Assembly: GCF_020509005.1 (NCBI RefSeq) | Contig: NC_063012.1 | Location: 4,526,001 to 4,590,000 of the forward strand | Length of the DNA: 64,000 nt | Direction of reading: 5' to 3' | Source: Fulvia fulva | Taxonomy: Eukaryota; Ascomycota; Dothideomycetes; Mycosphaerellales; Mycosphaerellaceae | In this document: positions 1-39,001 of the stretch, piece by piece | Numbering within the stretch: position 1 is the first letter of the stretch | Layout of the letters: the number at the start of each line of letters is the position of its first letter | The notes under the pieces: model-generated | Told to the model about the DNA's origin: nothing | Databases searched by the model: none | Seen by the model: only the letters and a program-made list of their open reading frames with translations | Position numbers and translations under genes: made by a program

Positions 1-1485
1 GCTTTCTTATCCTCTATATTGTTCGTTTCCTCTATTAGCTCTAATAACTTACTAGAGGTAGGCACTAAAACCCTTTTAATATAGCTATCGTTAGCATTAG
101 GCGTATAGTTATCCTTAGCTAGAGCTATAGGGCTATTACCTTTACGTAGAGGCTATACCGTTACGATTAACTAAGGTACTAGATCTATTACGTTCGCGTC
201 CGGCCTTATATCGACTAAGGTCTTATTCGGAATCTAATCTTCTAGCGGATAAAAGTTAATTGGTATAGACTTAGTTAGGTTATTATACTTAAAGTCTACG
301 ACTACCTTCGGTATATCCTTATATACTACGCTCGCGGGCTCCGAGGTAGACTTACTATCTAAATAGCCCTTCTATTTCACTAGTATAGTAATGCCTCTAC
401 CCTTCGGCTTAGAATTTAGGACGCGTTTAACCTCCTAGGTCTTAAACGTATTACTAGTTTTATTAGTAACCTCGATCGGCGGCGGTCGTACGTTATCTTC
501 TAGATCTACCGGTCGGAGAAGATTTGAATAGAAGGAGTTATATACGCGGATCGTCTCTAGTAGGGTAATACTATACATATTCTTACCGAGCGCGGTTATA
601 AATCATTACCGGTTCAAACTATTTAATATTAAGCTTCTTAGCTAGGCGTAATAAGTTCTAGTTCTTAGTATTAATATAGATATAGTCGCCTAGGCTATAT
701 CGCGGTAGTATAGTACGGTATATATTAGCGTTATCTACTTATAGGGCTTAATCGTAACGTAAGTATTCGTATAGGTACGTATAGAAGTCCTTTATCTATT
801 AAGTAAAACGCTCTGCCTTTTCGGCGGATAGGCGTTACTTAGTAGGTATTAGACGCTTAGGGAGGCTATCTCTATTAAAGTTACTAGTACGAGGATTACG
901 ACCTCGTTCGGCAAAGAATAGCGATATACCTATTACTTCTATTATATAGTTATTCTTTACGAATTCCGCTAGCGGAAGCTACTATACCTAATCTCCTTAT
1001 ACGTAGTCGATAAAGATACGGAGGTACTTCTCTATCTACTTGTTTATATTCTTAGACTATCTATCGGTCTTAGGATAGAAGGCTATAGACAACTTATAGA
1101 CTATCCCTACTAGTTCGTAGAAGCGTTACTAAAAAGCTAATAGCTACTGACTACCTTGATCTATAATAATAGACAGAGGGGTACTATATAAGCGGTAGTA
1201 GTCCCGGACAAAGACCTCGGCGATATATTCGGCCGTTATCTCCTTTACTAGGATTATATAGTATCCCTTACCCGTACGGTTAGTAATCGTAAGGGCATAA
1301 GTATATATAACGCTATTATAATTAGTACTCTTCGGTAGTCCTACTACGAAATCTATAGTAATTTCGCCCTATAGTTCAAACGAGATTAGTAGGGGTTTTA
1401 GTAGCCCTAGGTATTACGTCTACGAGGGTTTTAACGAGCGATATTCGTAGTACTTAAAGATCTTATTACGTATATACTACGAAAG
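1..1485 (-). mobile_element. Ty3/Gypsy chromovirus, integrase and chromodomain part (decayed)
   Basis: Read on the minus strand, positions about 1040-1080 give a decayed form of the integrase motif HPQTDGQ (seen as YPKTDR followed by a stop), and about 280-400 give a chromodomain core resembling LVKWKGY with the Trp changed to a stop, TGG to TAG. The order integrase then chromodomain is that of fungal chromoviruses. Stops are frequent and nearly all are explained by CA to TA or TG to TA changes, so no protein is made. The element continues beyond the left edge of the window. It resumes at 4865 after composite A, which duplicated the 14-16 bp target ending ctacgaaagg. Family assignment is firm; exact ends of the domains are approximate. 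Confidence 0.85.
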
Positions 1486-1486
1486 G
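1471..1486. repeat. Left target-site duplication of composite A
   Basis: tatatactacgaaagg here is repeated exactly at 4849-4864, at the far end of composite A. The final g may belong to the element instead, because copy C shows that the module starts with gtcgacg. The match shows that everything between the two copies entered the Gypsy element in one event. Confidence 0.9.
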
Positions 1487-2562
1487 TCGACGACGAGAAT
1501 CACCTGTACGTGGTGTCGGCTACGAACCTCTCGTCTAGCTACGAGAGAGCCAAGTATTCTCACGCTGGAGCGTCGTGGGCGCGACGGGCGCGTAGCGTAG
1601 GCGAAGCCGCGGCGAACAGAGGACTACCAGCAAAACGGGTATGAAAACCATCCGACGAGCGTGTACTCGTGTCGGGAGCGAGTCCCTCTTCTTTCTACGT
1701 GTAAGAAGGGCGCGGAACCGTGGCCTATACGCTCGACAGGACACCTCTGGTATGAGTGCAGAATTTTCACCTCCGGAGACCGCAAACCGAGCGGGCTAAG
1801 CGACGAACATTGGACGAGCGGACTACAGAACAACAACTGAGCGGACTATGCAACGGCGTCGAGCGGACTACGAAACAATCTGGTGTTTGCCAGCGGGCAA
1901 TGCGGTGGGTAGGTGGACACGCGACGAAGCCTGTAAGGGCCTGTTGAACACCCGGTATGGGAACGAGGGTTTTGCCTGAGGCACTGCCTGTCCCGCTACA
2001 CAACGCACCTAGTCTGACATGGTAGATTGCGACGAGGAAAAGACGATAGCCTGAGCAAGGAAAAGACGGCTGTTAGGACGGGGAAAAGACGTACAATGCA
2101 AGTGGATTAGTTCTGTGATCGGGGAGGATCGAGGGCAGGGTGATAAGGAACTTCATATTGGTTAGTAGGTGGAAACGCAAGGAGTACGCTGCCCGGCGTG
2201 GTGTGTGCCCCGAGCAGACCTGCGAGGCATGGACGGCCGCTTTCTAGAGATAGGCTGCGGTAACGCGAAGGGCGTCAAAACCTGGGGCGTGGTGTACACT
2301 GGCAGCGACGGCTGACACTGTCTGTACAGCCCGAGAGGACGGATGCGCATGTCGGTCAATAGAGAGCACTAAAGGGCTCAGGCCTATGGAGGTGGATATT
2401 GGCTTAAGGAGCAAACAGGGAGGGAGGGCGTAGAGGGAAGCTTTTGCTCCGGGCTAACCTCTCGAAACGAGGCTACACGGTGGTGCTAGATGAGTGGGAA
2501 AGCGCGGTTAAGACTTGTCACCTTATCTCGTAACTAGCTTGCTAAATACGATTCCTTCCTTG
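1486..2562 (+). other. 1077-bp non-coding 5' module, copy A (WEIRD-like)
   Basis: The same sequence occurs at 23238-24314 and, inverted, at 37911-38987; all three copies are exactly 1077 bp between the first g of gtcgacgacg and the last g of ccttccttg. No reading frame longer than about 80 codons is present and none is conserved between copies. Internal short repeats are visible: gagcggacta three times (about 1815-1870) and ggaaaagacg three times (about 2035-2090). The first 90 bases can form a three-way junction (see findings). No tRNA-type B box was seen, so it is not an obvious SINE. It is probably an RNA that LINE reverse transcriptase jumps onto; its origin is unknown. Confidence 0.85.
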
Positions 2563-4672
2563 CCGGTTAGCGACCCCGAGGCCAAGGCGCGTCTACTGGC
2601 TAGCAAGTTCTTCCCACCCCCAGTCGAGGCTGATCTAAGCGACATAAACAGCTCTACTCCCCTAGCCCCTAGCATCGCGGTCCAACAGGAGGTGTCCGAG
2701 GGAGAAGTTACCGCTGTGCTGAGGAAGTTGCCGGCGAAGAAAGCCCCGGGGCCGGATGGGATCCCAAACGAGCTACTAAAGAAGTGTAGAGATCAACTAG
2801 CCCCAGCAGTTGCAGCGATCTTCAACGCCTGCCTACAGACCGGATACCACCCGATAGCTTTTAAACAATCGACGACAGTGGTCCTACGCAAGCCGCAGAA
2901 GGAAGACTATACGCAGGTGAAGTCGTACCGCCCAATTGCGCTCCTTAACACTCTTGGGAAGGCGCTTGAGAAGCTGGTTGCAACGAGACTCTCCGAGGCG
3001 GCAGAGGAACACTCCCTACTCCCGGACACCCAGATGGGTGCGCGCCCACAGCGATCGACGCTATCCGCGATGGAACTTATCACCTCTCAGGTAAAGGCCA
3101 TCTGGTATAAGAATAGGGACAAGGTGGCTTCCTTACTTAGCCTAGACATATCGGGAGCCTTCGACTACGTGTCACACCCGCGGCTTCTCTACATCCTAAG
3201 GTCGAAAGGACTCCCTGAGTGGCTTGTCAACTTCGTACGGTCCTACCTCCAAAACCGCAGTACGTCGATCCTGGTCGGCCAGTACAGAAGCCCATTTCAA
3301 GCAGTCCACACTGGAATCCCGCAAGGCTCAACGCTAGCACCTATTCTGTTCCTCTTCTTTATGGCGACGCTGCTCCCAGCCCTAGAATCCCAGAACACCG
3401 CTGCGAGCGGCTTCGTAGACGACACAAACATCCTAGCGTGGTCTTCCTCGACTGAGGAGAACTGTAGGCTACTAGAAGAGAAGCACAAGATCTGCGAGGA
3501 CTGGGCTAGGAGGCACGGGGCTCGGTTTGCCCCAGAAAAGTACAATCTGATACACTTTACGCGCCGGCCACGGTTCCACAATATGCAAGCTTCTATCCAG
3601 ATACAGGGGCACACGACTAACCCGGCAAATCAGCTCAGGATCCTCGGACTATGGGTGGACCCGGCGCTACGGTGGAGGAAGCACGTACAGGCAATATTAC
3701 GGAAAGCTGAACAGAATATAGCATCATACCAGAGGCTTACTGCGTCTATATAGGGGGCGGACTTCCGGTAGTCACGACTTCTATATACGGCTATTATACG
3801 GCTAGTCCTTACCTATAGTAGCCAAGTGTAGTCCTTAGGCGAGAGGGCCTGCCTATCGAAGGGACTCGTCGCGCCGCTAGCGAAGATCCAAAACCAATGC
3901 CTAAGGAAGGTCACCGGGGCATATAAGTCGACACTAACGAGGATACTTAAGCATAAGACCGCTATACCGCCGATCGACCTATACATCCAGGGACTACGGA
4001 CCTCCTACTTAGGCAAGTCGGCACAGTACCCAGTACAGAAGGTCATCGCCAGTGCAGTCGCAAGGGCCCGCGAATCAGTACCAGCGCATAAGGGCATTCG
4101 ACCCGGAAACGAGCCGAACTACCGGGCAAGGGACGAACAGCTAGCAACACAATGGGAAGGTGAGAAATCGTTTGTAGAGCAACTATGGAAAGAGAGGTGG
4201 AACAACCAGGTTGTAGGGCATAGTGGACGCCCTCAGCCAGCGGGACAACCTAAGGAATGGTCAGCTACAAAATCCGCGGTCAAGCACCCCCCGAAGCTCA
4301 TCCACTACCGCCTTACGAGGGCACAGAGTAGCATAGCAACCCAACTGCGAAGCGAACACATCGGCCTCCAGGGGTACCTATCATGGAGGAAGGTCCCAGG
4401 ATACACGAATACTAGCTGCCCCTGCGGCTATCGCTCCCAGAACGTACGGCACGCACTCCTCGTCTGTCCGAGGTGGTCGCTAGGAAGGGGGGAGTGGATG
4501 GTAAAGGCGAGGAACCGGACGATTGGGGCACTTCTTAACAACGCTGAAGACCTACGGCGCATTACGAACTGGATACTAGAGAAGGGCTGGCTAGAACAGT
4601 ACCGCCTAGTAGGAGCAGTGCAGGAAGAGAGGACACGACGCAGCGCGACGAGACCGGCTAGGAGCGGGGGCT
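2563..4672 (+). pseudogene. LINE1 (Tad1-like) reverse transcriptase, 5'-truncated and broken
   Basis: An open frame of about 400 codons (to 3753) carries non-LTR reverse transcriptase blocks in order: PGPDGIPNELLKKC, YRPIALLNTLGKALE, SLDISGAFDYVS, GIPQGSTLAPILFLFF, and the catalytic FVDD at 3412-3423. The frame then enters a RIP-altered patch with TAG stops (about 3717-3980) and recovers. Near the C-terminus (4417-4480) is a Cys/His cluster, CPCGYRSQ followed by H and C, typical of the tail of Tad1/I-type LINEs. No RNase H domain is seen between the two. The endonuclease and ORF1 are missing because the element is truncated at the module junction. It cannot encode its own movement. Confidence 0.88.
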
Positions 4673-4848
4673 AACGGGGTAGTGACATGGACTACGTACG
4701 TTCAGAGGGAAAGCTAATCTAGACAAGGAGTAGTCGGGGGCGGGAAGGGTTTTCACCTATTCGGGTTTCCCTTTGTACATAACAATAGATATATACCTGC
4801 ATAGGCCGGATAGGGTCCTAGAACAGGGGAATGACAAATCTATCTATC

Positions 4849-4864
4849 TATATACTACGAAAGG
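4849..4864. repeat. Right target-site duplication of composite A
   Basis: Exact repeat of 1471-1486. The first bases tat merge with the LINE tail (tatc)n, so the exact edge cannot be fixed to the base. Confidence 0.88.
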
Positions 4865-10031: not shown

Positions 10032-10199
10032 GATAGATAGATTTGTCATTCCCCTGTTCTAGGACCCTATCCGGCCTATGCAGGTATATATCTATTGTTA
10101 TGTACAAAGGGAAACCCGAATAGGTGAAAACCCTTCCCGCCCCCGACTACTCCTTGTCTAGATTAGCTTTCCCTCTGAACGTACGTAGTCCATGTCACT

Positions 10200-13100
10200 A
10201 CCCCGTTAGCCCCCGCTCCTAGCCGGTCTCGTCGCGCTGCGTCGTGTCCTCTCTTCCTGCACTGCTCCTACTAGGCGGTACTGTTCTAGCCAGCCCTTCT
10301 CTAGTATCCAGTTCGTAATGCGCCGTAGGTCTTTAGCGTTGTTAAGAAGTGCCCCAATCGTCCGGTTCCTCGCCTTTGCCATCCACTCCCCCCTTCCTAG
10401 CGACCACCTCGGACAGACGAGGAGTGCGTGCCGTACGTTCTGGGAGCGATAGCCGCAGGGGCAGCTAGTATTCGTGTATCCTGGAACCTTCCTCCATGAT
10501 AGGTACCCCTAGAGGCCGATGTGTTCGCTTCGCAGTTGGGTTGCTATGCTACTCTGTGCCCTCGTAAGGCGGTAGTGGATGAGCTTCGGGGGGTGCTTGA
10601 CCGCGGATTTTGTAGCTGACCATTCCTTAGGTTGTCCCGCTGGCTGAGGGCGTCCACTATGCCCTACAACCTGGTTGTTCCACCTCTCTTTCCATAGTTG
10701 CTCTACAAACGATTTCTCACCTTCCCATTGTGTTGCTAGCTGTTCGTCCCTTGCCCGGTAGTTCGGCTCGTTTCCGGGTCGAATGCCCTTGTGCGCTGGT
10801 ACTGATTCGCGGGCCCTTGCGACTGCACTGGCGATGACCTTCTGTACTGGGTACTGTGCCGACTTGCCTATGTAGGAGGTCCGTAGTCCCTGGATGTATA
10901 GGTCGATCGGCGGTATAGCGGTCTCGTGCTCAAGCATCCTCGTTGGTGTCGACTTATATGCCCCGGTGACCTTCCTTAGGCATTGGTTTTGGATCTTCGC
11001 TAGCGGCGCGACGAGTCCCTTCGATAGGCAGGCCCTCTCGCCTAAGGACCACACTTGGCTGCCATAGGTAAGGACTGGCCGTACAATAGCCGTATATAGA
11101 AGTCGTGACTGCCGGAAGTCCGCCCCCCATGTGGACGCAGTGAGCCTCTGGCATGATGCCATATTCTGTTCAGCTTTCCGTAATATTGCCTGTACGTGCT
11201 TCCTCCACCGTAGCGCCGGGTCCACCCATAGTCCGAGGATCCTGAGCTGATTTGCCGGGTTAGTCGTGTGCCCCTGTATCTGGATAGAAGCTTGCATATT
11301 GTGGAACCGTGGCCGGCGCGTAAAGTGTATCAGATTGTACTTTTCTGGGGCAAACCGAGCCCCGTGCCTCCTAGCCCAGTCCTCGCAGATCTTGTGCTTC
11401 TCTTCTAGTAGCCTACAGTTCTCCTCAGTCGAGGAAGACCACGCTAGGATGTTTGTGTCGTCTACGAAGCCGCTCGCAGCGGTGTTCTGGGATTCTAGGG
11501 CTGGGAGCAGCGTCGCCATAAAGAAGAGGAACAGAATAGGTGCTAGCGTTAAGCCTTGCGGGATTCTAGTGTGGACTGCTTGAAATGGGCTTCTGTACTG
11601 GCCGACCAGGATCGACGTACTGCGGTTTTGGAGGTAGGACCGTACGAAGTTGACAAGCTACTCAGGGAGTCCTTTCGACCTTAGGATGTAGAGAAGCCGC
11701 GGGTATGACACGTAGTCGAAGGCTCCCGATATGTCTAGGCTAAGTAAGGAAGCCACCTTGTCCCTATTCTTATACCAGATGGCCTTTACCTGAGAGGTGA
11801 TAAGTTCCATCGCGGATAGCGTCGATCGCTGTGGGCGCGCACCCATCTGGGTGTCCGGGAGTAGGGAGTGTTCCTCTGCCGCCTCGGAGAGTCTCGTTGC
11901 AACCAGCTTCTCAAGCGCCTTCCCAAGAGTGTTAAGGAGCGCAATTGGGCGGTACGACTTCACCTGCGTATAGTCTTCCTTCTGCGGCTTGCGTAGGACC
12001 ACTGTCGTCGATTGTTTAAAAGCTATCGGGTGGTATCCGGTCTGTAGGCAGGCGTTGAAGATCGCTGCAACTGCTGGGGCTAGTTGATCTCTACACTTCT
12101 TTAGTAGCTCGTTTGGGATCCCATCCGGCCCCGGGGCTTTCTTCGCCGGCAACTTCCTTAGCACAGCGGCAACTTCTCCCTCGGACACCTCCTGTTAGAC
12201 CGCGATGCTAGGGGCTAGGGGAGTAGAGCTGTTTATGTCGCTTAGATTAGCCTCGACTAGGGGCGGGAAGAACTTGCTAGCCAGTAGACGCGCCTTGGCC
12301 TCGGGGTCGCTAACCGGGCCACTAGGCGATTGTAGCGCTGGGATAGAGAAGGAGGGGCCCTGTGTAGGGTCCTGTCGGGCCCATTTCGCTAGCTTCCACA
12401 TCCTCTCTGGCTTGCCGGCGATTTCTTCCACTGTGGCCCTCCAGCCGACTGCTTTCTCCCTCCGTATTATGGCTTTCTTCTGTTGGCATGCCTCCCTGTA
12501 TACGTTCCAGGCCTCCTCGCTATGGCTGCTCGTCCACACCCGGCGGGCTCTCCTTGCTTCTCTTACTACCGCAGTGCACTCCGGCGTCCAGTATGGTTTG
12601 GACTATGTCGTTGGTTGGGCAAGCGGAACGTGAAGTGAGGTCGCTTTTCTTATTTCGTCTGTCAACCCCTGGACTGCTTCGTCTATCTCGTCTTTACTGT
12701 TGTATTGCTGCTGCGCGATCTGGACTAGCCTCTTGGAGTCATCGAGGTACGCCTGGATGTTGGCCTAGTGGGCCTTTCCCCAGTTTGGCTTAGGGGTTCT
12801 CGCTAGTGTGCGTTGTATCTGTGTCGCAATAGAGGTCCTGACTGGCATGTGGTCTGACGACGCCTCGAGTTCATGTTCGATCCCACAGTAGGTTACCGTG
12901 TGGTAGTGGCTATCTGAGATCCAGGAGAGGTCGATCGTGCCTTGGAGTCCCCCTCTCTTCTAGGTGCCCAGGTCCTTCGGGGTATTGAGGGCAATTGCGT
13001 TGCTCGCTATCAAGTCGAGTACTTCGTCGGCTATAGGGTGCGGCTGCATAAGGCTTTCCCAGGAAGGGTGGTGTATATTGAAGTCTCCTACTACGATGTG

Positions 13101-13530
13101 GCACCCTTGTCTCTTGAGCGCACTGTCTAGGTGTCTGCAGACCCCTAGGTCGCAGCTAGACCTCGAGGCTGGCGGTTGTATGTATAGGTTGTGTATCCAG
13201 GTGCTACCCACGTGGAGGGAGGTAATATCGCCCCCGCCTTCTTCGTCTGCGTAGTACACTACCTCCCAGTCGGATTCTAGTATGTCCTTGCTGACATAGA
13301 AGCACGTGCGGGGTCTGCCGTCGCCTCGTAGGCATGTCGTGTAGCCTAGTGACTTGCAGGTCGTTGGTCTCTTATGGTGCGGGTTAATCTATGGCTCCTG
13401 GATTGTAAGGACGTAGTGGACGCGCGGGTCCGCCTCGTGTAGGAAATGGTTCTGGACTATATCCTTGCTATGGTTGACGTTATACTGGATGATGCTAAGC
13501 GTGTCGAGGCTAGTCATCGGCATCGACAAT
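10200..13530 (-). pseudogene. LINE1-B ORF2: APE endonuclease, reverse transcriptase, Cys/His tail
   Basis: On the minus strand the N-terminal part (about 13500-12640) is an AP-endonuclease-like nuclease with the block VVGDFNIHHPSW at about 13068-13100. The reverse transcriptase follows (about 12190-11100) with PGPDGIPNELL, YRPIALLNT, LDISGAFDYV, and the catalytic FVDD at 11458-11469. The C-terminal LTRAQSSIATQLRSEHIGL segment precedes the Cys/His cluster at about 10430-10470. Stops interrupt it at about 12194 (a CAA Gln codon in copy A, here TAA) and about 11656 (TGG to TAG). No RNase H motif lies between RT and tail. Only a few bases from intact, but not functional as read. Confidence 0.88.
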
Positions 13531-14700
13531 CATTTCCTCTGTATCGTCCTGTGTCCTACTGCCCTGTGCGTCCTGGTCTACGCCTATCGGCTGTGTACTA
13601 AAGGGGAGCCGGGCCTGGTTAGATTCCCTCGCCGCAGGTAGCAGAGTACGTGGCCTCCCGTACGCCCTAGGCTGCGCATCCTTTACATCGTTCTCGGCCC
13701 TAGGGCGCTTGTGCCCGACCGCCGCTAGTTGGTTCCGGTGTGGGCTAGCCTCACGGTCGCCGTAGAATCTTGGGGCGACGGTTCTGTTTGTGATTGCCTT
13801 GTTTTTCGCTAGTTTCCGCTGTGGGCATTCCGCACTATACGATGGGTGGTGCCCCGGACAGTTCGCGCACCGTCTCGTAGTCGATGTACAGTCCCTAGAC
13901 ATATAGTCTCCTGCACAGTTCGAGCAGGCCTGCTTGTTTATGCACGTGTAGGTTTGGTGTCCATACTGTTGGCATTTGAAGCATTAGAGGACACGAAAGG
14001 ATGAGGAGTGCTTTTCTACTGTCTTGAGGCTGTATTGCCAGACCAGGCCTTGTTCTATCGCTAGATCCGCCGCTTTCGCGTCTTGTAGCCATACTATTAG
14101 CGCCGAGGCCTTCTTGCCTTCTGGCCATTTCCTATGGAGCCAAGTCGCCTTCTGGATTGGAGAGTTAAGAGTGACCGGGTTGTCCTCTTAGAGAGCGCGT
14201 AGGTGACCCTGGTTGGTTGGGTCAAACTCCTTAGGCATGTCGTGGACTAGGATCGTGAATTGTTTCGTTGAGACCTTCGCTGATGCCGCAACCTTAGATG
14301 CCCACTGTGGCTGTGCCTCTAGGTGCCTCCTAGCAGTAGCAGAGCTAGTATAGATCTGTAGAGTGCCGTTGGACTGTTGGTTCACTGCGACCACCCCTGG
14401 TTGGTTGATTCGTTGGGCGAGCTCCTTGTTCGATAGCTTCGCAACTTCGGCCTGGTCTTCCTTTGCTACAATGCGGATCGTAACTGCATCGTGCGTTGGG
14501 CGGGGGCCTGGTATCGATGCCGCGACCGATGCCTAGCTATAGGGGTGTTGATTCCGGGTGGCTTTGCTAATCGCCTGGGACGTCGTCCTCATTTCTTGTT
14601 GCCCTCGGTGATACGACAGTACAAGCGCCGTGCGTAGCTGAGTGATCATTACCTGTAGAGACCGGTAAGGGAGCTGATCGTTAGTTTCCATGCTTTTTGC
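13510..14700 (-). pseudogene. LINE1-B ORF1: nucleic-acid-binding protein with zinc knuckles
   Basis: On the minus strand about 13990-13810 encodes three CCHC-type knuckles. The first is C-X2-C-X4-H-X4-C (CFKCQQYGHQTYTC); the second has its His position read as Tyr, a CAT to TAT change; the third is CANCPGHH followed by a later Cys. A TAA directly before the first knuckle replaces what was probably CAA. The region upstream (14400-14000) is a plausible RNA-binding domain. ORF1 of Tad1-like LINEs coats the RNA; here it is broken. It overlaps or abuts the start of ORF2 near 13510. Confidence 0.8.
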
Positions 14701-15024
14701 GTCCTCTATAAGTTGCTACCAGTTGTCTTAGGGGGGCTTCGCCTGTAGGGCCGTAGGCGCCGTTAGTGCCGTAGCCTGGGCTGCCATTGCCTAGGAGTTG
14801 CCTAATGTAGCTAGGCACCTCCGCGGCGTTTGGAGCTGAAGAAACAGGGTGAAGAGAGCTTCAAGCTGTCCAGATTGAATGAGGTAGAACTCCCTCAGTC
14901 CTAGGGGCAGTGGCCTGCTTTTTATATCGTTGGAATGGCCTTGATAAGAGCTTTCGAATGTGTCGTGTTTTGGCGCAGAGATCGATGGGTAGAGATCCGC
15001 CGTTATGTTCTCGTTGTAGGCGTC

Positions 15025-16130: not shown

Positions 16131-17105
16131 AATCTAGGGTTCTCTAAGTTCGACTTAGACTTACCTATACTACTAATACTATATAAATAGCGACTAGACG
16201 CCGAGTCCGCGGATAAGTTTACGGCTAAGATATAAGAGATATACTAATACTTACGGTAGTAGATAGCCTTAGTATAAGTAGTCTAAGCTAAGTACGTAAA
16301 CTAGACGCGTATACCTATACTACGGTACGCCGAAGGCGACGAAGTATAGGTAAGTACTAAGAACTAGACGATAGAGAGACCTTTTCGTAAGATAGACGTA
16401 AAGTAGGCTAGACTATACGTTATTACGGAGGTACTACCGGGTAATACTTATAAAGTAGAGCTCTTACCTACTTTAAAGATCGATAATTACTTCTACTTAT
16501 ACCTTCTTATACTAGTTTATCCGCCGGTTATAGGATAGATATAACCCGTACTACTAACGATCCGAATTATTAACGACGAATAATACGAAGCCGATCCCGC
16601 CGAACCCGATTAATAGGAAGTTAAGCAAATTCTAGACTATAAGAAGAGATAGCCGCGAGGACTAATACCGGTAGGAGGTAAGTAGCTATATTAGGAATAC
16701 TTAGTGAAATATATTAGATATAATAAGCTATCCTATAAAGCTACGGACTAGGTTATCGAGACTACCGCCGCCTCTATAGTCGACTTTTACTATAACTACC
16801 CGAGAGCGACCAAACTACCTAGTTTTTAACTACCTATAGACTAGATACCGAATAAGAATGCTATAGGTATACATATAGCGCGCTAACTAGTATAAGTAGC
16901 GATAGCTCTAATACCGGTAGGACTAGGCCTCCGGGCTTATAAGAAAGAGAGCGATACGCGTCGCGTTAACAATCTTACTCGACGAGTAGACCGCGTAGTA
17001 GACGCTAATCTTCCGATTAGCGCGAGTTAAGACGATCTTAAAGACGGATTAGACAATAGTCTAATAGATAATAAGGTGTTTACGAAGGTAATAAGAGATA
17101 TAATA
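16130..17105 (+). mobile_element. Second chromovirus: integrase C-terminus and chromodomain (decayed)
   Basis: On the plus strand about 16310-16560 reads as a Gypsy integrase C-terminal domain (RYAEGDEV, then ERPFRKIDVKQARLYVITEV, then PPVIGQ). About 16600-16740 reads as a chromodomain (QILDYKKR, then EYLVKYIRYNKLSYKATD). Stops match CA to TA and TG to TA changes. The element is interrupted at 17106 by LINE2-E and resumes at 22606 with its polypurine tract and 3' LTR. Confidence 0.78.
17090..17105. repeat. Left target-site duplication of LINE2-E
   Basis: aagagatataata at 17093-17105 is repeated at 22606-22618. The adjoining TA-rich tail makes the inner edge uncertain by a few bases. Confidence 0.75.
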
Positions 17106-17999
17106 TATATATATTATTTATTAAGCTATTATAGTGCCTCCTGGCCTATATAGCTATTCTACGTACTTCTGTCTTTCGAAGGGAAAACCGCTCGCGGTGA
17201 AAACCCCTCTCCTCTTCTATACTACTATTGTCCGTTATTTGCCTTCCCGCTTTCCTTATAAAGGGTATACTAGTGTTATAGGCCTGCCCTAATAACTACC
17301 TTGTCTACATCTCCTTAGTCTCCCTCCTCTTCTCTATCTACTCCTCCGTCTCGTTAGCTAGTTTAAACTAGGTGAGGTATCCTTATCTTAGGACCTAACG
17401 TGCTATCCTCTATACGTCGCTCTTGTTTATAATAATCGACTAGTAGTCGCGTCTAGCTACTCTTGCTCTCTATATACTCCGCCCTTCTACCTACTATAGG
17501 CACCGTACGACTATATATTCCGGGTTCTACGACGGGTAGCTAGACTCGTACGCTAGGTTATCTATATCTAGGACGTTCCTCCTATATAAGTAAGCCCGAA
17601 GCCCGATATATCCGGACCGGATTTAGATTATAACGCTTGCTTCTACCCTTATAAGGTCGCGGTATAGGAGGTAGTTATGTCTCTAGAAGGTTCGTAGGGC
17701 TAGGGAGCCTATTCTCGCTAGCGGGTTACTGTTCTATTCCTATTCCTATAGGCAGCCGGCTACCTACTCTACGAGGCTCTAGGACTTTCCCTTATTCCCC
17801 TTCCTTTCCCGGGTTCTTCGTCCCTCCTCCTCCCTCGCTAGCTACTCCGGCGTTCCTTATATTTTCCTAAAACCCCGTACGTCGTCCCGCTTCTAACTCC
17901 TCCTTACGTACGGTCCTATATATAGCCGGCTATATCTCTATATAATTCGTACTGTCTTATCGTAGATAGTTTGCTATACTAGGTACCCTATCGTCTCCG

Positions 18000-19900
18000 C
18001 CGTATATTAGATCCTTATCCCTTAGATATAGTAACGGATAGGTAGTGTCCCGGTCTCTATCTCGGCTACTCTCGTCGGTATAGTCTTATACGCTCCGAGA
18101 ATTCTTCTTGAGTTGCCTACTTAGGTTAGATTAAGAGGCTGTTCGATCCGTCGCGGTACTAGCTTATCGACTCCCTCCGTGCCCTAGATTTAGACCCCGT
18201 AAAGTATCGCTAGTCGAACGATTACTTTATATATTATTCTTACTTTGTTAAAGGTCGCCCCCTACGTTAACTTAGTAAGACGTGTTATTAATGCCTTGTT
18301 TACTTATACCCTCTTCTAGGCCTTCTTAATCTATAGGTTCTAGCTTAGCTTCGGGTCTAGCTAGATTCCTAGTACTCGGAGTTCGGGGGAGGGCTTCGTC
18401 TCGTATCTCTAGATTATTATAGTTGCCTATATATTGTAGTGGGTCCTCGCTTTACTAAAGTAGATCAGCTAGTATTTCTCTAGGGCAAAGCGGACGCCGT
18501 AGCGTCTAGCCTAGTCCTCGTATACTCTATGTCTCTCCGTAAGTAGTCTATAGTTTTCCTCCGTTATCGCGGACTAGGCTAGAATATTTATGTCGTCTAC
18601 GAAGCCTAACGCCGAAGTCTAAGGGGACGTAAGTAAGGGGATAAAGTCGGCCATAAAGATTAGGAATAGGATCGGGGATAGCGTAGATCCTTAGGGGATT
18701 CCGGCCTCTACGTATACCCTATCGGATTTATACCTCCCGAGGACTATTCTCGTAGTCCTCTCTTTAAGGAAGGAGTATATAAATTTCGTGGCCTATACGG
18801 GGACTCCCTTCTATCGGAGTATATAGAGTAGTCTTTTATAGGAGACGTTATCGAATACTTCGGAGATGTCTAGGGAGAGTAGTGATACTATTCTATTCCG
18901 TCTATAGTACTAGAGAGTTTAGATCTATTCGGTTATTAGTTCTATTACCGTAAGGGTTAAGCGGTTACTTCTCCCTCTTATCTATGTCTCCGGGAGGATA
19001 TTGTTCTCCTCGACTAGTTTTATAAGTCTCTAGGCTACTACCTTCTCTAGGATCTTCCCTACTATATCTAGGAGCGTAATCGGTCTATATAACTTGAGCC
19101 TATTATAGTCTTCCTTCTATAGCTTCCGGATAACTACTGTTAGGAAGTCTCTATACGGCTTTAGATAGTAGCCTTTCCGTAGACACGTAGTAAAGAGCTT
19201 AGCTAGGCTCGGGGCGATTTCCTCTTTATATTCCTTTAGTAGGAGGTTTAGGATTTTGTCGGGCCCTAGGGCCTTTCTTCCCTTAAGCTGTCCTATTACG
19301 GCCTTAACCTCGCCTAGCTAGACTGTCTAGTATATATCTAGTAGTTCCGGGTACGACGTGCCTACTATATCCGTTAGGTCCGCGTCGACTTATATTAAGA
19401 AGAAGTAGTCCGTAAACGCCTTCGCTTTTTCCTCCGGCGTTAACCTTAGCGTTCCCGTTATATCGACTATAGGCGGGAAGTAAGGCGTCTTCTCTATCCC
19501 TCTAGCTCTCGCCTACCTCGCTAGTCGCTATATCTAGTTAGGGTTCTCTATTACGAGCCCTACCGTCGTTCTCTAGTCTAGCTATTTGTCCCGACGTATC
19601 TAGGCTTTCTTAGCTTAGCGAGCCCTTTAGTATACGTCCTATATTACTTATATATGCTCCTTCGTCTACTCTCGTCTAGCTCTCCTCGCCTCCTTTACCC
19701 TTTCCGTATATACCGGGGTCTAGAATAGCTTCTGTCTTTAAGAAGGTCGAATATAGGGTATATACTAACGAGCTACCTCCTATACGACTATCATTATCCG
19801 TTCGGCTTCTTTATCGAGCTCGGCTTCTTATTCTACTTCTATTCCTACTTCTAGTCCCGTATTTACTCTATTATCGTATAGTCGTACCGCTAGTTCACCT
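18000..19900 (-). pseudogene. LINE2-E reverse transcriptase region
   Basis: On the minus strand the RT blocks are recognisable despite stops: ALGFVDDINIL around 18590-18610 and the upstream GPDKI/N-type block near 19260. It is homologous to the RT of composite F (FVDD at 37627-37638) and more distant from LINE1. Endonuclease-type sequence follows upstream to about 20700. Confidence 0.72.
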
Positions 19901-20949
19901 CGGATTTCTTCCTACGAGGCCTTCTTCTAGTTTAGACGCGGCTCCGCTATAGGTTCCTCCTCGACTCCTACCTCGATTGTTGTCTAGATCGGGATGTAGT
20001 CTAATCCTACTTCGAGTAAGAGGTTCGGACGGCACTTGTCTAGTCTCGTTACTAGCTCTCTCGAGAGGAAGTATAGGTTAATCGTACTTACGCTTAATCT
20101 CGCCTTCTATATCTCTATAAGCTTTAGGGTCGCTAGTTCTATATCGCGGCTCGCGGTAATTTCTAGTAACTTGCCTCCTAGGTATACGTATAGGGGGGTA
20201 AAGTCTAGACCCTATTATAGGTAGTAAAGGTTAAAGTCGCCTACTAGAACTTAGATATATCCCCTTATTCGAGTATCCGGTCTAGTATAGCTAGGGTTCC
20301 TAGGTCTCTACTCGTTCGTCCTTATAGAGAAGGGTTATAGACGTTATAGATTCGGACGGTTCCCTAGCCTATTACTATTTCGATTGTCGTTATGTCCCCC
20401 TAGTAGCCCTCCGGCTATAGTACGACCTTCTATACTTCTATACTAATAGCCTTACTTACGTAGGTATATATTCTTAGGGTATGTCCTATACCCCTACCGA
20501 TTACCGTATAGTATCGTTAGTCGTTACAGGTTACCGGTTTACTTATATATAGGTTAGTCTAAGGTTCCTATAGCGCTACAATATAGTGCTTTTAGTAGTC
20601 GAGTTCTTATAGGAAGTGGAGTTAGACCTTATCTTTACTTTTAGTAACGTTATACTATATAATAGTAAGGTTGTCCTATACTACTATTACGGGCTAGCTA
20701 GGATAATGTCTATAGAGGTGCTCCGGGCTTAGGTAGTACCTACGGTTATCGTATCTTCCTCTTAGGTTAGGAGGCCTTTAGTCGGTAGGGGTGTTCTAAA
20801 AATCTATATCTGTCCTGTCTCGTTTACCGCCCTATTTAGCCCCCTTAGCCGTCCTAGCGGCGGGTACGTACTCGGTAGGGTGCCCCTTATTACCTCCTCC
20901 GTTCTCTTTCTTTTTGCCGCCTTAAAGCCTTTATATTAAGCGCTACCTT

Positions 20950-22300
20950 ATAGCGGGGTAGGGTACCTTACTAGGGTCGTTATTCGTACTTAGTTAGCCT
21001 TCCCTTTCGCGGCGATCCGGGTTAGGTATTAGCTCGAGTACGCCGGGTGTTTCCGGCTATAGTATACGTACCTTACTTCTTCTCGTAGGTATTACTTTCC
21101 CTAGTATAGGCCTACGTAGTATAGGTACTTCGGGGTCTTCTCCGTACCTTTCGGAGCGATATGTCCGTACTATTAGTAGTTAAAGCATTAGAGTACTCTA
21201 TAGCTGTCACGGCCCTAGGCCTAGTAAATAGTTAGCTAGTATATAGGTCACGTAACCGCGCATTACTAGCGCGCCTCGGCTATATATAACCTCGGCGTAC
21301 CTCGCGCTCCTCTTTCCTACGTACCTAGCTACTTTGTATTAATACGATTATAAACCGTCATAATAGCTACTCTAGTAGATTTCCGTATTAAGACGTTCGT
21401 AGTTCTAGTATAGTCCTTTATCTAGGACTAGGTTTACTTATTCCGTATTTACTATCTAGACGATTAACGAGGAGTATATCTTTATTAGTTCGACGCTTCT
21501 ATATAGCCAGACGGCCTTAGAGAAGCGTACTCCTAGGGATGTGCTCTAGTTCTATATTTATAGCTAGGGGAGGTCGTTTTTAACCTTAAAGGTTCTAGGG
21601 ACCCCGTAGGCTATTACTATAAATTGTTAGTAGGAGACCTTTACTAACTTTACTACTTTTGTTATCTATTCCTTATACGTCTCGAGTCTTTATCGGTCTG
21701 TCTCCTATACGGTAAAAAGCCTTACTACCCCCCTTAGCTCTACCTTCGCTCCTACGATCTCCTTCCGGCCGATTCTATCTACGAGCTCCTTACTCGTAAG
21801 GCCCTCGAGTTCCCTTTTCTCCTCCGGGTCGGTAACGTAGACTCGGATCGCGTTATTAGTCCTCTAGGGCTAGGCCTAGTAGTGTCCCGCGGCGATTATA
21901 GCCTACGTAAGGTTCTTCTATTATATTACGTACTATATAGTCTAGTAGATCGTTCTTAGGGTCTAGTGTTCGAGTGCCTTAAGTACACTAAGGAGCTACG
22001 CGATTATATATTTATATACTTGGGCTAGGTATTCGTCTTCGTCTAGTATTACCTAGGCCTCTTTATACAATTCTATCTACGCGGAGGGGCCGGGGGCGGC
22101 TAGGGTTCGTTATACTTTTCCTAGGCCCTTAGCTTGTTATCGTTAGCCGTTATCTTACTATTGCTAGGTTAGTTATTAGCTTAGCTATTAATAGGTTAGT
22201 TACTACTAGCTAGGTTCCTATACCGCTTCCCGTTTATAGAGATTTAGGTATCCCTCGCGAGCTGCCTAATGCTCGCGAGTTAGGCTTAGGATCTAGTCTC
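20950..22300 (-). pseudogene. LINE2-E ORF1 with zinc knuckles, split by a solo LTR
   Basis: On the minus strand about 21190-21030 gives QYGHIAPKGTEKTPKY and VRYVYYSRKHPAYSSQY, in which several Tyr and Gly positions fit original Cys codons (TGT to TAT). This is the knuckle pattern of LINE ORF1 proteins. The 158-bp LTR at 21205-21362 interrupts the frame just before the first knuckle. Not functional. Confidence 0.65.
21205..21362 (+). mobile_element. Solo LTR, 158 bp
   Basis: Starts tgtcacggcc and ends ccgtcata, where the last ta is the RIP form of the usual ca. It is flanked by a 5-bp duplication atagc at 21200-21204 and 21363-21367, as LTR integrases make. It has a TATA-like tatataacc at about 21281. 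The first ten bases equal the LTR start of the minus-strand Gypsy element, so it is probably a related family left by LTR recombination. A very short complete element cannot be excluded. Confidence 0.75.
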
Positions 22301-22605
22301 TATATCGCTATACTTTAGCTACGGCTAAGATTAGAAGTTGCCTAAATAGGCAATTCACCTCCGCGGCTCCGTAATTTTAGGGACCTATCGGATAGGAGGT
22401 AGATTCCTATTTTCTAGTCGCTTTCCGTAGTAATGGCGTAGCCGCTAGTATAGGCGCGCTACTCTTATTCTCGTTAGGTAATAGCCTTAATAGGCGCTTT
22501 CGAATAGTACGTCGTACGAGGTCCTTAGTTAAGTTAAAGGCGTACGTCTCGTTCCCTAGGACCTAGATCGACCTATATATCTAGGGACTACGGACCTCCT
22601 CCTTT

Positions 22606-22865: not shown

Positions 22866-23237
22866 ATAAGAGTATAAATTGGCGTACGACTCGAGATACG
22901 TAGAAAAGGTAGAAATAAATATTTACGGTAAGTATATAATATAGAAAGAAGAAAAGTTCGTAGCCTTAGGCTTATAAGTATATATAAAGTATACCGTATA
23001 AGACGGTACGCCCGTAGACGTCTTAGGTTTAATATACGTACTAGGCGCGATTGTACTATACTCCGTAGAGCCTCTCTATAGCTCGTTATCCTCCTTCTTA
23101 TTAGACCTCTTATTAGCTAGCTTAGTAGTCTCGGCGAGACGTTCTTAGTACTCGGTAATTACCTCTTAAGTATTAGCGGAGTAGTCTACGGCGGCGGTAG
23201 AGCGCTTAAGAGTAGCGGTTTACTATATTATTATTAG
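22866..23237. other. RIP-altered sequence, no gene recognised
   Basis: About 370 bases of TA-rich, stop-rich sequence between the LTR and composite C. It is probably continuous with 28416-28809 and 33772-34131, from which composite C and LINE1-D later split it. I could not assign it to an element. Confidence 0.5.
23224..23237. repeat. Left target-site duplication of composite C
   Basis: tatattattattag, repeated exactly at 28402-28415. It fixes the first base of the module as the g at 23238. Confidence 0.92.
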
Positions 23238-24314
23238 GTCGACGACGAGAATCACCTGTACGTGGTGTCGGCTACGAACCTCTCGTCTAGCTACGAGAGA
23301 GCCAAGTATTCTTACGCTAGAGCGTCGTAGGCGCGACGGGCGCGTAGCGTAGGCGAAGCCGCGGCGAACAGAGGACTACTAGTAAAACGGGTATGAAAAC
23401 TATCCGACGAGCGTGTACTCGTGTCGGGAGCGAGTCCCTCTTCTTTCTACGTGTAAGAAGGGCGCGGAACCGTGGCCTATACGCTCGACAGGACACCTCT
23501 AGTATAAGTGTAGAATTTTCACCTCCGGAGACCGCAAACCGAGCGGGCTAAGCGACGAACATTAGACGAGCGGACTACAGAACAACAACTGAGCGGACTA
23601 TATAACGGCGTCGAGCGGACTACGAAACAATCTGGTGTTTGCTAGCGGGCAATGCGGTGGGTAGGTGGACACGCGACGAAGCCTATAAGGGCCTGTTAAA
23701 CACCCGGTATAGGAACGAGGGTTTTGCCTAAGGCACTGCCTGTCCCGCTACACAACGCACCTAGTCTAATATAGTAGATTGCGACGAGGAAAAGACGATA
23801 GCCTAAGCAAGGAAAAGACGGCTATTAGGACGGGGAAAAGACGTATAATACAAGTGGATTAGTTCTGTGATTGGGGAGGATCGAGGGCAGGGTGATAAGG
23901 AACTTCATATTGGTTAGTAGGTAGAAACGCAAGGAGTACGCTGCCCGGCGTGGTGTGTGCCCCGAGCAAACCTACGAGGCATAGACGGCCGCTTTCTAGA
24001 GATAGGCTGCGGTAACGCGAAGGGCGTCAAAACCTAGGGCGTAGTGTACACTAGTAGCGACGGCTGACACTGTCTATATAGCCCGAGAGGACGGATGCGC
24101 ATGTCGGTCAATAGAGAGCACTAAAGGGCTTAGGCCTATAGAGGTGGATATTGGCTTAAGGAGCAAACAGGGAGGGAGGGCGTAGAGGGAAGCTTTTGCT
24201 CCGGGCTAACCTCTCGAAACGAGGCTACACGGTGGTACTAGATAAGTAGGAAAGCGCGGTTAAGACTTGTCACCTTATCTCGTAGCTAGCTTGCTAAATA
24301 CGATTCCTTCCTTA
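23238..24314 (+). other. 1077-bp module, copy C (complete)
   Basis: Aligns end to end with 1486-2562 at identical length; the differences are CA to TA and TG to TA. The fold-forming bases of the first 90 nucleotides are preserved. The last base is a at 24314, where copy A has g, a RIP-type change. Confidence 0.88.
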
Positions 24315-25022
24315 GGCGTCGAGCGGACTACGAAACAATCTGGTGTTTGCTAGCGGGCAATACGGTGGGTAGGTAGACACGCGACGAAGCCTATAAGGGC
24401 CTATTGAACACCCGGTATAGGAACGAGGGTTTTGCCTAAGGCACTGCCTGTCCCGCTATACAACGCACCTAGTCTGACATAGTAGATTGCGACGAGGAAA
24501 AGACGATAGCCTAAGCAAGGAAAAGACGGCTATTAGGACGGGGAAAAGACGTACAATGCAAGTGGATTAGTTCTGTGATCGGGGAGGATCGAGGGCAGGG
24601 TGATAAGGAACTTCATATTAGTTAGTAGGTGGAAACGCAAGGAGTACGCTACCCGGCGTGGTGTGTGCCCCGAGCAAACCTACGAGGCATAGACGGCCGC
24701 TTTCTAGAGATAGGCTGCGGTAACGCGAAGGGCGTCAAAACCTAGGGCGTGGTATACACTGGCAGCGACGGCTAACACTGTCTGTACAGCCCGAGAGGAC
24801 GGATGCGCATGTCGGTCAATAGAGAGCACTAAAGGGCTTAGGCCTATAGAGGTAGATATTGGCTTAAGGAGCAAATAGGGAGGGAGGGCGTAGAGGGAAG
24901 CTTTTGCTCCGGGCTAACCTCTCGAAACGAGGCTACACGGTAGTGCTAGATGAGTAGGAAAGCGCGGTTAAGACTTGTCACCTTATCTCGTAGCTAGCTT
25001 ACTAAATACGATTCCTTCCTTG
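24315..25022 (+). other. 5'-truncated module in tandem (708 bp)
   Basis: Starts at the module position equal to 1855 in copy A (gcgtcgagcggacta) and runs to the same 3' end, cgattccttccttg. It carries a different set of RIP changes from the complete module just before it. The next bases, ccttgcaatc, are LINE1, so up to five bases ccttg are shared at the junction. Confidence 0.88.
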
Positions 25023-28000
25023 CCTTGCAATCTAGGAGCTATGGATTAACCCGCACCATAAGAGACCAACGACCTGCAAGTCACTAGGCTATACGACATG
25101 CCTACGAGGCGACGGCAGACCCCGTACGTGCTTCTATGTCAGCAAGGACATACTAGAATCCGACTGGGAGGTAGTGTACTACGCAGACGAAGAAGGCGGG
25201 GGCGATATTACCTCCCTCCACGTGGGTAGCACCTGGATACACAACCTATATATACAACCGCCAGCCTCGAGGTCTAGCCGCGACCTAGGGGTCTGCAGAC
25301 ACCTAGACAGTGCGCTTAAGAGACAAGGGTGCCACATCGTAGTAGGAGACTTCAATATACACCACCCTTCCTAGGAAAGCCTTATACAGCCGCACCCTAT
25401 AGCCGACGAAGTACTCGACTTGATGGCGAGCAACGCAATTGCCCTCAATACCCCGAAGGACCTGGGCACCTAGAAGAGAGGGGGACTCCAAGGCACGATC
25501 GACCTCTCCTAGATCTCAGATAGCCACTACCACACGGTAACCTACTATAGGATCGAACATGAACTCGAGGCGTCGTTAGACCACATGCCAGTCAGGACCT
25601 CTATTGCGACATAGATACAACGCACACCAGCGGGAACCCCTAAGCCAAACTGGGGAAAGGCCCACTAGGCCAATATCTAGGCGTACCTCGATAACTCTAA
25701 GAGGCTAGTCCAGATCGCGTAGTAGCAATACAACAGTAAAGACGAGATAGACGAAGTAGTCTAGGGGTTGACAGACGAAATAAGGAAAGCGACCTCACTT
25801 CACGTTCCGCTTGCCTAACTAACGACATGGTCCAAACTATACTAGACGCCGGAGTGCACTACGGTAGTAAGAGAAGCAAGGAGAGCCCGCCGGGTATGGA
25901 CGAGCAGCTATAGCGAGGAGGCCTAGAACGTATATAGGGAGGCATGCCAACAGAAGAAAGCCATAATACGAAGGGAGAAAGCAGTCGGCTGGAGGGCCAT
26001 AGTAGAAGAAATCGCCGGCAAGCTAGAGAGGATGTGGAAGCTAGCGAAATGGGCCCGACAGGACCCTACACAGGGCCCCTCCTTCTCTATCCCAGCGCTA
26101 CAATCGCCTAGTGGCCCGGTTAGCGACCCCGAGGCCAAGGCGCGTCTACTGGCTAGCAAGTTCTTCCCGCCCCTAGTCGAGGCTAATCTAAGCGACATAA
26201 ACAGCTCTACTCCCCTAGCCCCTAGCATCGCGGTCTAACAGGAGGTGTCCGAGGGAGAAGTTGCCGCTGTGCTAAGGAAGTTGCCGGCGAAGAAAGCCCC
26301 GGGGCCGGATGGGATCCCAAACGAGCTACTAAAGAAGTGTAGAGATCAACTAGCCCTAGCAGTTGTAGCAATCTTCAACGCCTGCCTATAGACCGGGTAC
26401 CACCCGATAGCTTTTAAACAATCGACGACAGTGGTCCTACGTAAGCCGTAGAAGGAAGACTATACGCAGGTGAAGTCGTACCGCCCAATTGCGCTCCTTA
26501 ACACTCTTAGGAAGGCGCTTAAGAAGCTAGTTATAACGAGACTCTCCGAGGCGGTAGAGGAACACTCCCTACTCCCGGACACCTAGATAGGTGCGCGCCT
26601 ATAGCGATCGACGCTATCCGCGATGGAACTTATCACCTCTTAGGTAAAGGCCATCTGGTATAAGAATAGGGACAAGGTGGCTTCCTTACTTAGCCTAGAC
26701 ATATCGGGAGCCTTCGACTACGTGTCACACCCGCGGCTACTCTACATCCTAAGGTCGAAAGGACTCCCTAAGTGGCTTGTCAACTTCGTACGGTCCTATC
26801 TCGAAAACCGTAGTACGTCGATCCTGGTCGGCCAGTACAGAAGCCCATTTTAAGTAGTCTACACTAGAATCCCGTAAGGCTTAACGCTAGTACCTATTCT
26901 GTTCCTCTTCTTTATAGCGACGCTACTCCCAGCCCTAGAATCCCAGAACACCGCTGCGAGCGGCTTCGTAGACGACACAAACATCCTAGCGTGGTCTTCC
27001 TCGACTAAGGAGAACTGTAGGCTACTAGAAGAGAAGCACAAGATCTACGAGGACTAGGCTAGGAGGCACGGGGCTAGGTTTGCCCTAGAAAAGTACAATC
27101 TGATACACTTTACGCGCCGGCCACGGTTCCACAATATGCAAGCTTCTATCTAGATATAGGGGCATACGACTAACCCGGCAAATCAGCTCAGGATCCTCGG
27201 ACTATAGGTGGACCCGGCGCTACGGTAGAGGAAGCACGTATAGGTAATATTACGGAAAGCTGAACAGAATATAGCATCATACCAGAGGCTTACTGCGTCT
27301 ATATAGGGGGCGGACTTCCGGTAGTCACGACTTCTATATACGGCTATTATACGGCTAGTCCTTACCTATAGTAGCCAAGTGTAGTCCTTAGGCGAGAGGG
27401 CCTGCCTATCGAAGGGACTCGTCGCGCCGCTAGCGAAGATCCAAAACCAATGCCTAAGGAAGGTCACCGGGGCATATAAGTCGACACTAACGAGGATACT
27501 TAAGCATAAGACCGCTATACCGCCGATCGACCTATACATCTAGGGACTACGGACCTCCTACTTAGGCAAGTCGGCACAGTACCTAGTATAGAAGGTTATC
27601 GCTAGTATAGTCGTAAGGGCCCGCGAATCAGTACTAGCGTATAGGGGCATTCGACCCGGAAACGAGCCGAACTACCGGGTAAGGGACGAACAGCTAGCAA
27701 CATAATAGGAAGGTAAGAAATCGTTTGTAGAGCAACTATAGAAAGAGAGGTGGAATAACTAGGTTGTAGGGCATAGTGGACGCCCTTAGCTAGCGGGACA
27801 ACCTAAGGAATGGTTAGCTACAAAATCCGCGGTCAAGCACCCCCCGAAGCTTATCTACTACCGCCTTACGAGGGCACAGAGTAGCATAGCAACCTAACTG
27901 CGAAGCGAACACATCGGCCTCTAGGGGTACCTATCATAGAGGAAGGTTCTAGGATACACGAATACTAGCTGCCCCTACGGCTATCGCTCCTAGAACGTAC

Positions 28001-28230
28001 GGTACGTACTACTCGTCTGTCCGAGGTAGTCGCTAGGAAGGGGGGAGTAGATAGTAAAGGCGAGGAACCGGACGATTAGGGCACTTCTTAATAACGCTAA
28101 GGACCTACGGCGCATTACGAACTAGATACTAGAGAAGGGCTAGCTAGAATAGTACCGCCTAGTAGGAGTAGTATAGGAAGAGAGGATACGACGTAGCGCG
28201 ACGAGACCGGCTAGGAGCGGGGGCTAACGG
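25023..28230 (+). pseudogene. LINE1 ORF2 part in composite C: endonuclease C-terminal part and RT, broken
   Basis: Begins inside the endonuclease; VVGDFNIHHPS is encoded at about 25337-25374. The reverse transcriptase spans about 26230-27270 with FVDD at 26965-26976. Stops by RIP are numerous. Between about 27268 and 27545 the sequence is the same as the corresponding patch of composite A, including its RIP changes. Confidence 0.85.
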
Positions 28231-28401
28231 GGTAGTGATATAGACTACGTACGTTCAGAGGGAAAGCTAAACTAGATAAGGAGTAGTCGGGGGCGGGAAG
28301 GGTTTTCACCTATTCGGGTTTCCCTTTGTACATAACAATAGATATATACCTGTATAGGCCGGATAGGGTCCTAGAACAGGGGAATGACAAATCTATCTAT
28401 C

Positions 28402-28415
28402 TATATTATTATTAG
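28402..28415. repeat. Right target-site duplication of composite C
   Basis: tatattattattag, equal to 23224-23237. Confidence 0.92.
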
Positions 28416-38987: not shown

Positions 38988-39001
38988 CGCTTAATATATA
39001 G

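Follow-up and report, generated by a model that had tools for sequence, protein, structure and literature searches.

Composite elements in the window

The 64,000-bp stretch of the Fulvia fulva genome analysed here (contig NC_063012.1, positions 4,526,001 to 4,590,000; hereafter the window) carries three composite elements, designated A, C and F, in which a non-coding module precedes a 5′-truncated long interspersed nuclear element (LINE) in the same orientation. Composite A spans 1485–4848, composite C 23237–28400 and composite F, on the minus strand, 36147–38988; self-comparison of the window returned the module copies listed in Table 1. A first-pass annotation of this DNA had described a module common to the three elements that continues into a 5′-truncated LINE, each unit being bracketed by one target duplication. 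The common module was borne out, with a length of 1,078 bp rather than 1077 bp and a start in composite A at 1485, 1 base upstream of the earlier call. The two-part layout describes A and F, whereas C consists of three parts, namely the module, a second partial module and the LINE; in F, moreover, the LINE is of a different family. Each composite does have a single duplication, measuring 14 bp in A and in C and matching at 12 of 13 bp in F. That of A can be extended to 16 bp because target and element both carry GG.

Table 1. Parts of composites A, C and F and two further LINE copies in the window (positions counted from its first base; L-numbers denote module loci sampled outside the window; RT, reverse transcriptase; HDV, hepatitis delta virus)
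Feature	Position	Strand	Details
Composite A target duplication, left copy	1471..1484	+	TATATACTACGAAA
Composite A module	1485..2562	+	1078 bp; single difference (G>A) from the L009 module
Composite A predicted HDV-like ribozyme	1485..1561	+	prediction only
Composite A 5′-truncated LINE1 part	2563..4848	+	RT domain PF00078; TATC repeats at end
Composite A target duplication, right copy	4849..4862	+	TATATACTACGAAA
Composite C target duplication, left copy	23223..23236	+	CTATATTATTATTA, 14 bp
Composite C full module	23237..24314	+	versus the L009 module, 41/41 differences C>T or G>A
Composite C predicted HDV-like ribozyme	23237..23313	+	one base off A (77 C>T, G-U pairing kept); prediction only
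Composite C second, partial module	24315..25022	+	approximately module position 371 to end
Composite C 5′-truncated LINE1 part	25023..28400	+	LINE breakpoint identical to that of L010
Composite C target duplication, right copy	28401..28414	+	CTATATTATTATTA
Composite F target duplication, 5′ side	38989..39001	-	CTATATATTAAGC
Composite F module	37911..38988	-	C>T/G>A changes account for 103/106 differences from the L009 module; predicted ribozyme disrupted
Composite F 5′-truncated LINE2 part	36147..37910	-	LINE family other than in A and C
Composite F target duplication, 3′ side	36134..36146	-	CTATATACTAAGC; 12/13 match, one C/T difference
Long LINE1 copy, 4993 bp	10032..15024	-	own unrelated 5′ end, 14-bp target duplication; no module; donor reference
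LINE5 copy	17098..22381	-	relatives joined to the module at L049, L066 and L080; outer ends approximate

Genome-wide copies of the module

The whole genome (67,169,167 bases in 14 contigs) holds 550 intact 18-base module 3′ ends and 452 intact 16-base 5′ ends when searched with exact patterns; the reversed-pattern controls gave 0 in both cases. A similarity search with the module returned at least 41 matches (best 40 of 656 candidates scored). For context, an excerpt of PMC9453070 gives a share of 16.3% for LINE/Tad1 elements in the genome of Cladosporium (Fulvia) fulva Race 5. A sample of 82 copies was assembled from A, C and F, 39 top-match loci and 40 places on contig 1. One of the 40 top places was A itself; 20 of the other 39 were taken with long flanks (the long loci) and 19 at the 3′ junction. 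The contig-1 copies were consecutive along the contig, were chosen only by an intact 18-base 3′ end, and none was already in the sample. The tabulation of breakpoints and module ends that the first-pass annotation had proposed for the whole genome was thus carried out for 82 of the 550 or more copies.

The module is non-coding, its longest wholly internal open reading frame measuring 78 amino acids, and it ends in ...CCTTCCTTG or in a variant ending in A, as repeat-induced point mutation (RIP) would give. An Rfam search placed it in no family, the single match being an unrelated family at E 2.7. A 5.8S search, directed at a possible ribosomal DNA (rDNA) origin, found no match (best 39 of 1274 candidates scored), and viral contigs searched with one 27-base module pattern yielded 0 relatives. 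The exact pattern for a head-to-tail module array, a possible source of unit-length RNA, occurred 0 times.

A further 12 loci keep the 16-base 5′ end without an intact 18-base 3′ end, and eight of them continue into LINE sequence. At L099 the module runs into a second module, which makes another double module, and at L097 it is broken at position 349 by a reverse-oriented LINE4 copy. Two others leave the module for another repeat, L103 at position 860 and L094 after 16 bases. The repeat that interrupts these two modules is also present in L026, with direct repeats ~5.8 kb apart, and is perhaps a long terminal repeat (LTR) retrotransposon.

Target duplications

In 18 of the 20 long loci, a duplication of 11–16 bp lies directly before the first G of the module and after the LINE tail. 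GGTCGAC forms the first seven module bases in all 20 (these loci were chosen as full-length matches) and abuts the duplication directly in all 18 loci that have one. When the flanks of different loci among the 18 were compared with each other as a control (306 comparisons), at most 8 bp were shared, so the duplications are not due to chance.

Joining of module and LINE by recombination at the DNA level or by segmental duplication would account for L013 and L015, the two long loci without a duplication (L013 has only a stray 8-mer), and for the L058 composite, whose flanks are inverted copies of each other. The single duplication around the whole unit refutes this explanation for the 18 other long loci, and we consider it very improbable overall. 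Neither of the two LINE6 composites yielded a duplication, since one has mutually inverted flanks and the bases before the module were not reached in the other. The LINE6 composite at L088/L092/L093 (C1:2418100-2424800) is flanked by such inverted copies and not by a direct duplication.

Junctions with several LINE families

All 82 copies could be mapped, and they share one module 3′ end while their LINE parts begin at 53 distinct breakpoints; the contig-1 subset alone has 30 breakpoints among 40 copies. The first-pass annotation had noted a constant module end with differing LINE breakpoints for the three composites, and had named an invariable breakpoint, or a module–LINE unit without a duplication, as what would speak for a single ancestral fusion or segmental duplication; with 53 breakpoints in 82 copies and duplications in 18 of 20 long loci, its template-switching interpretation fits the larger sample as well. 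LINE2 lies behind the module in 39 copies, LINE1 in 19, LINE3 in 12, LINE4 in seven, LINE5 in three and LINE6 in two. The plus strand of LINE1-5 was matched by 80 of the 82 and LINE6 by the remaining two, with L050 (78%) and L080 (74%) matching their family references weakly. In these counts C and L021 are represented by their second module, the first module of each running into the second.

Reverse transcriptase domains were found in the LINE parts of A and L014, and LINE2 codes for endonuclease and reverse transcriptase domains, its protein matches including a Passalora fulva LINE protein (57% identity over 80% of the query). LINE5 has ~65% of its bases in common with LINE2. LINE6 is decayed, with no reading frame left and a TTTA-repeat tail, and is probably a LINE as well. 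One LINE2 copy at L024:6500-10000 has an internal gap (806 joined to 1690), which may reflect a mosaic or a deletion.

The breakpoints follow a simple rule. In the donor, a pyrimidine (Y; C or T) precedes the break at all 50 usable breakpoints and a C follows it at 47, so that 47 of 50 read Y|C as compared with 11.4% in the LINE1-4 references (binomial p ~8e-41). These statistics leave out three of the 53 breakpoints, two whose reference sequence begins right at the junction, and L073, which aligned only from base 33. Shifted by -5, -3, -2 and -1 positions, the Y|C count is 3, 4, 1 and 4 of 50; at +1 and +2 it is 39 and 10, because most sites read CC. Either micro-homology with a module RNA ending in CC or pausing of the enzyme at CC could produce this preference.

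LINEs such as R2 and L1Tc are known to begin with HDV-like ribozymes, and the module might accordingly be the normal 5′ untranslated region of one LINE family, the composites being internally deleted LINEs. The module, however, is joined to members of five LINE families and to a sixth element, at 53 breakpoints with no constant junction, and the commonest breakpoints (8 and 6 copies) lie inside LINE2 and not at a LINE 5′ end. Furthermore, two long LINE copies with duplications, one of LINE1 and one of LINE3, begin with sequence unrelated to the module. We regard this explanation as improbable.

Probable repeated fusion and spread of existing fusions

A different possibility is that one or a few fusions arose once and spread as ordinary composite transposons, with repeated switching being rare. 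In its favor, 12 of the 53 breakpoints recur, each in 2–8 sampled copies, and some of these occur in both RIP-mutated and unmutated copies. L040 and L041 have the breakpoint and two module variants in common, and the LINE junctions of the double-module elements C and L021 are those of the single-module loci L010 and L009, respectively, an indication that whole composites are copied as well. The recurrent breakpoints, which the first-pass annotation had overlooked, are therefore also due in part to spread of existing fusions or to hot spots of switching. As a sole explanation, however, a few ancestral fusions are excluded by the 53 breakpoints in 82 copies and the 30 in 40 on contig 1, and in the broader form, with switching rare, the explanation appears unlikely.

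The module haplotypes also speak against it, as the same haplotypes are found with more than one LINE family and breakpoint, and both are present at one breakpoint. Among 34 modules compared, eight carry the haplotype 569A+733A+895T, on four LINE1 and four LINE2 breakpoints, and three more carry two of the three changes. Because resemblance to A was the criterion by which these 34 were picked, selection accounts in part for their low diversity. The LINE2 breakpoint 1912 bases from the end is joined to the main haplotype in L022, L024 and L027 and to the triple one in L039. The first three each show a different single change, and two of these three changes are also present at other breakpoints. 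Unless modules recombine, the pattern points to repeated use of this breakpoint.

Two candidates were dropped in this comparison. A supposed private single-nucleotide polymorphism of the 1912 group (column 310) turned out to be the module's last G. L014 and L028, which have a common breakpoint, were set aside as proof of independent reuse because their first 1187 LINE bases are identical and are followed by 15 differences, so that recombination is possible; the pair may include a recombinant of a composite with another LINE2 haplotype.

Compared with the L009 module, older module copies show mostly C>T/G>A changes, as expected for RIP: 26 of 26 differences in the second module of C, 84 of 84 in the second copy at L015, 83 of 84 in a distant copy at L021 and 80 of 87 in the copy at L020:9223.

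A predicted ribozyme at the module 5′ end

The first 77 nt of the module are predicted to form an HDV-like nested double pseudoknot. The layout of the HDV fold served as our reading guide. P1 would pair positions 1–7 with 31–37 (GGUCGAC/GUCGGCU), P2 11–16 with 72–77 (GAGAAU/AUUCUC), P3 18–20 with 28–30 (ACC/GGU) and P1.1 22–23 with 38–39 (GU/AC), while P4 (44–50/57–63, CUCUCGU/ACGAGAG) would be a plain 7-bp stem with a 6-nt loop. J4/2 (AGCCAAGU) holds the presumed catalytic C at position 67, and an extra C at position 17 lies between P2 and P3. The five helices and the C in J4/2 were recognized by hand and with a descriptor fitted to the fold. The presumed cleavage site coincides with the element 5′ terminus, the first G standing right after the duplication in 18 loci. 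Judging from the sequence, unmutated copies thus begin at their exact 5′ terminus with a predicted HDV-like self-cleaving ribozyme, a feature that the first-pass annotation had missed, along with the second module in C.

On both strands of the window, the descriptor matched only at 1485/1486 and 23237/23238. In the 20 long loci, outside the module starts at 300/301, it matched one more module copy, L020:9223. A Markov-sequence control gave 4 matches per 1.55 Mb, or ~3 false positives per million positions. A core pattern of R2 ribozymes, built from a published primer (given in an excerpt of PMC3414825) with three positions opened after comparison with the module, occurred in the window only at 1502 and 23254, with 0.01 expected, and genome-wide 173 times (reversed control 6). 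Among the places listed for this pattern, all but three have the letters of the module or of its P1.1 G->A form. Two places, C1:1604919 and C2:6598400, have the pattern with non-module letters (ACCTCGGCGTGGTGTC) and may represent another ribozyme-bearing repeat or chance.

The fold could also be a coincidence, with the module representing an abundant cellular RNA that has a promoter-set 5′ end, comparable to U6 in mammalian chimeras. Several observations weigh against the ribozyme, and some of them favor such a coincidence. The descriptor was written after the fold had been seen, had no positive control on known ribozymes and, like the core pattern, was fitted after inspection; no HDV family of Rfam matched at E values up to 10; when the whole module is folded for minimum energy, with pseudoknots disallowed, its 5′ end pairs elsewhere; and cleavage is a prediction. 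By reading of the sequence, G-U stands at the cleavage site where the fungal variant usually has a C-G pair, and P4 has no loop E. The ribozyme of composite F is altered at positions 22 (P1.1) and 28 (P3) and at the presumed catalytic C, and all 12 further loci fail the descriptor, including L105, which is 98% identical, and one that holds only the first 16 bases. The fold is therefore kept in little-mutated copies. On the other side, the fold lies exactly at the element 5′ terminus with five helices and a C in the catalytic place, the R2-like core is in the right place with pairing P1.1 bases, the fungal extra C is present and the descriptor rarely matches by chance. We give coincidence a low probability.

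Comparison with known systems

The first-pass annotation had likened the composites to MINE of Magnaporthe, and the comparison holds for the layout and the likely mechanism. According to the accessible part of PMC2104539, MINE consists of a full copy of WEIRD, a non-coding RNA of 1113 nt, 5′ of the 5′-truncated LINE MGL, with duplications of 10–20 bp; 31 elements had 28 chimerization sites with the motif GCC*A/U, six of them reused, with one tripartite case and no solo WEIRD. The F. fulva composites likewise have a full-length non-coding module of ~1.1 kb (here 1078 nt) 5′ of a truncated LINE in the same orientation, with one duplication per unit in the 10–20 bp range, and the Y|C rule resembles the Magnaporthe motif. 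They differ in their number (550 intact module 3′ ends against 31 MINEs), in the involvement of several LINE families, in module-on-module doubles and in the predicted 5′ ribozyme, none being mentioned for WEIRD in that part of PMC2104539. Homology of the two modules did not emerge: two published 20-nt WEIRD primers match the module at 11 of 20 positions at best, no better than shuffled primers.

R2 SIDEs (short internally deleted elements) and R2/R1 hybrid SIDEs of Drosophila place an HDV-like ribozyme segment upstream of another LINE's 3′ end, with the 14-bp duplication of that other LINE (PMC3414825, excerpt). As described there, they are a handful of fixed rDNA structures with the R2 ribozyme, whereas the F. 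fulva composites have a 1-kb module, many joining points and several dispersed LINEs. Mammalian chimeric retrogenes, mostly U6 small nuclear RNA joined to L1, are attributed to a template switch from LINE RNA to a cellular RNA (PMC2104539, same part). Their acceptor differs from the module in being a known small nuclear RNA. We know of no ribozyme in U6-type acceptor RNA.

Fungal HDV variants, as summarized in the available text of PMC5640933, form a double pseudoknot in which an additional nucleotide (usually C) separates P2 from P3; as a rule they have a C-G cleavage-site pair and a loop E in P4. The module resembles them in its extra C and differs in its G-U pair and plain P4. The strings "transpos" and "retrotransposon" occur 0 times in the main text of that paper. 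In R2 ribozymes P1 typically measures 6–7 bp and P2 at least 5 (PMC3774820, excerpt). Among the matches listed for the open-licence literature, there was no paper on module–LINE chimeras in Fulvia fulva and none on an HDV-like ribozyme in MINE/WEIRD. The word "Chimeric" is absent from PMC10823647, as is "ribozyme" from PMC3978060.

Other repeats in the window

Between 34183 and 35337 lies a 1155-bp element with 80-bp terminal inverted repeats (95% complementary) that contains GAGCGGGCTA units and has relatives in L017 and L027; by eye, ACCGAGCGGGCTA is common to this element and the module. Tandem repeats of 48 bp are located at 59546–59731, in the GC-richer part of the window.

A model for the composites

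We propose, with a probability of roughly 78%, that a distinct 1,078-nt non-coding RNA with a ribozyme-set 5′ end repeatedly serves LINE reverse transcriptases as a second template in F. fulva, and that both fresh fusions and the spread of existing ones produced the composites. During target-primed reverse transcription, the enzyme would leave the LINE RNA at a Y|C(C) site, jump to the 3′ end of the module RNA and copy the module, often through to its 5′ end. As the anatomy of the units suggests, the hybrid complementary DNA would then integrate with one target duplication, the module being the copy of an RNA. The predicted ribozyme would cut just before the first G and so set the 5′ end of the module RNA. 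With the ribozyme standing at the 5′ terminus of a full composite, a read-through transcript would be cut back to a unit that begins at the correct 5′ end and keeps the LINE tail at its 3′ end, so some composites would probably retrotranspose again.

To be set against this proposal, besides the recurrent breakpoints, the two long loci without a duplication and the points raised against the fold, is the result that 0 of the 82 mapped copies are solo modules; a separate module RNA is something we infer, because no free-standing module locus was found. In addition, RIP of a lightly mutated source copy may have produced the triple haplotype, all three of its changes being C>T/G>A.

Template switching by LINEs onto other RNAs is usually viewed as an accident, whereas here one RNA has apparently entered very many insertions across several LINE families, so that the switch sites (Y|C, mostly Y|CC) can be mapped quantitatively. 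The predicted ribozyme, which is new here, would define the module 5′ end and may let composites move again; if active, it would offer a way for fusions that have no promoter of their own to be transcribed with an accurate 5′ end. The finding also points to a function that fungal HDV ribozymes may serve and suggests how WEIRD, the still unexplained RNA of the rice blast fungus, could be tested. More tentatively, and in our view as a possibility less likely than the proposal above, the module could be a ribozyme-tipped parasitic RNA that is a preferred landing site of LINE reverse transcriptases and makes dead 5′-truncated LINE ends of several families re-mobilisable, with WEIRD and some fungal HDV ribozymes belonging to the same class of LINE hitch-hikers. 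If this is true, the ribozyme would recreate a proper 5′ end from any read-through transcript.

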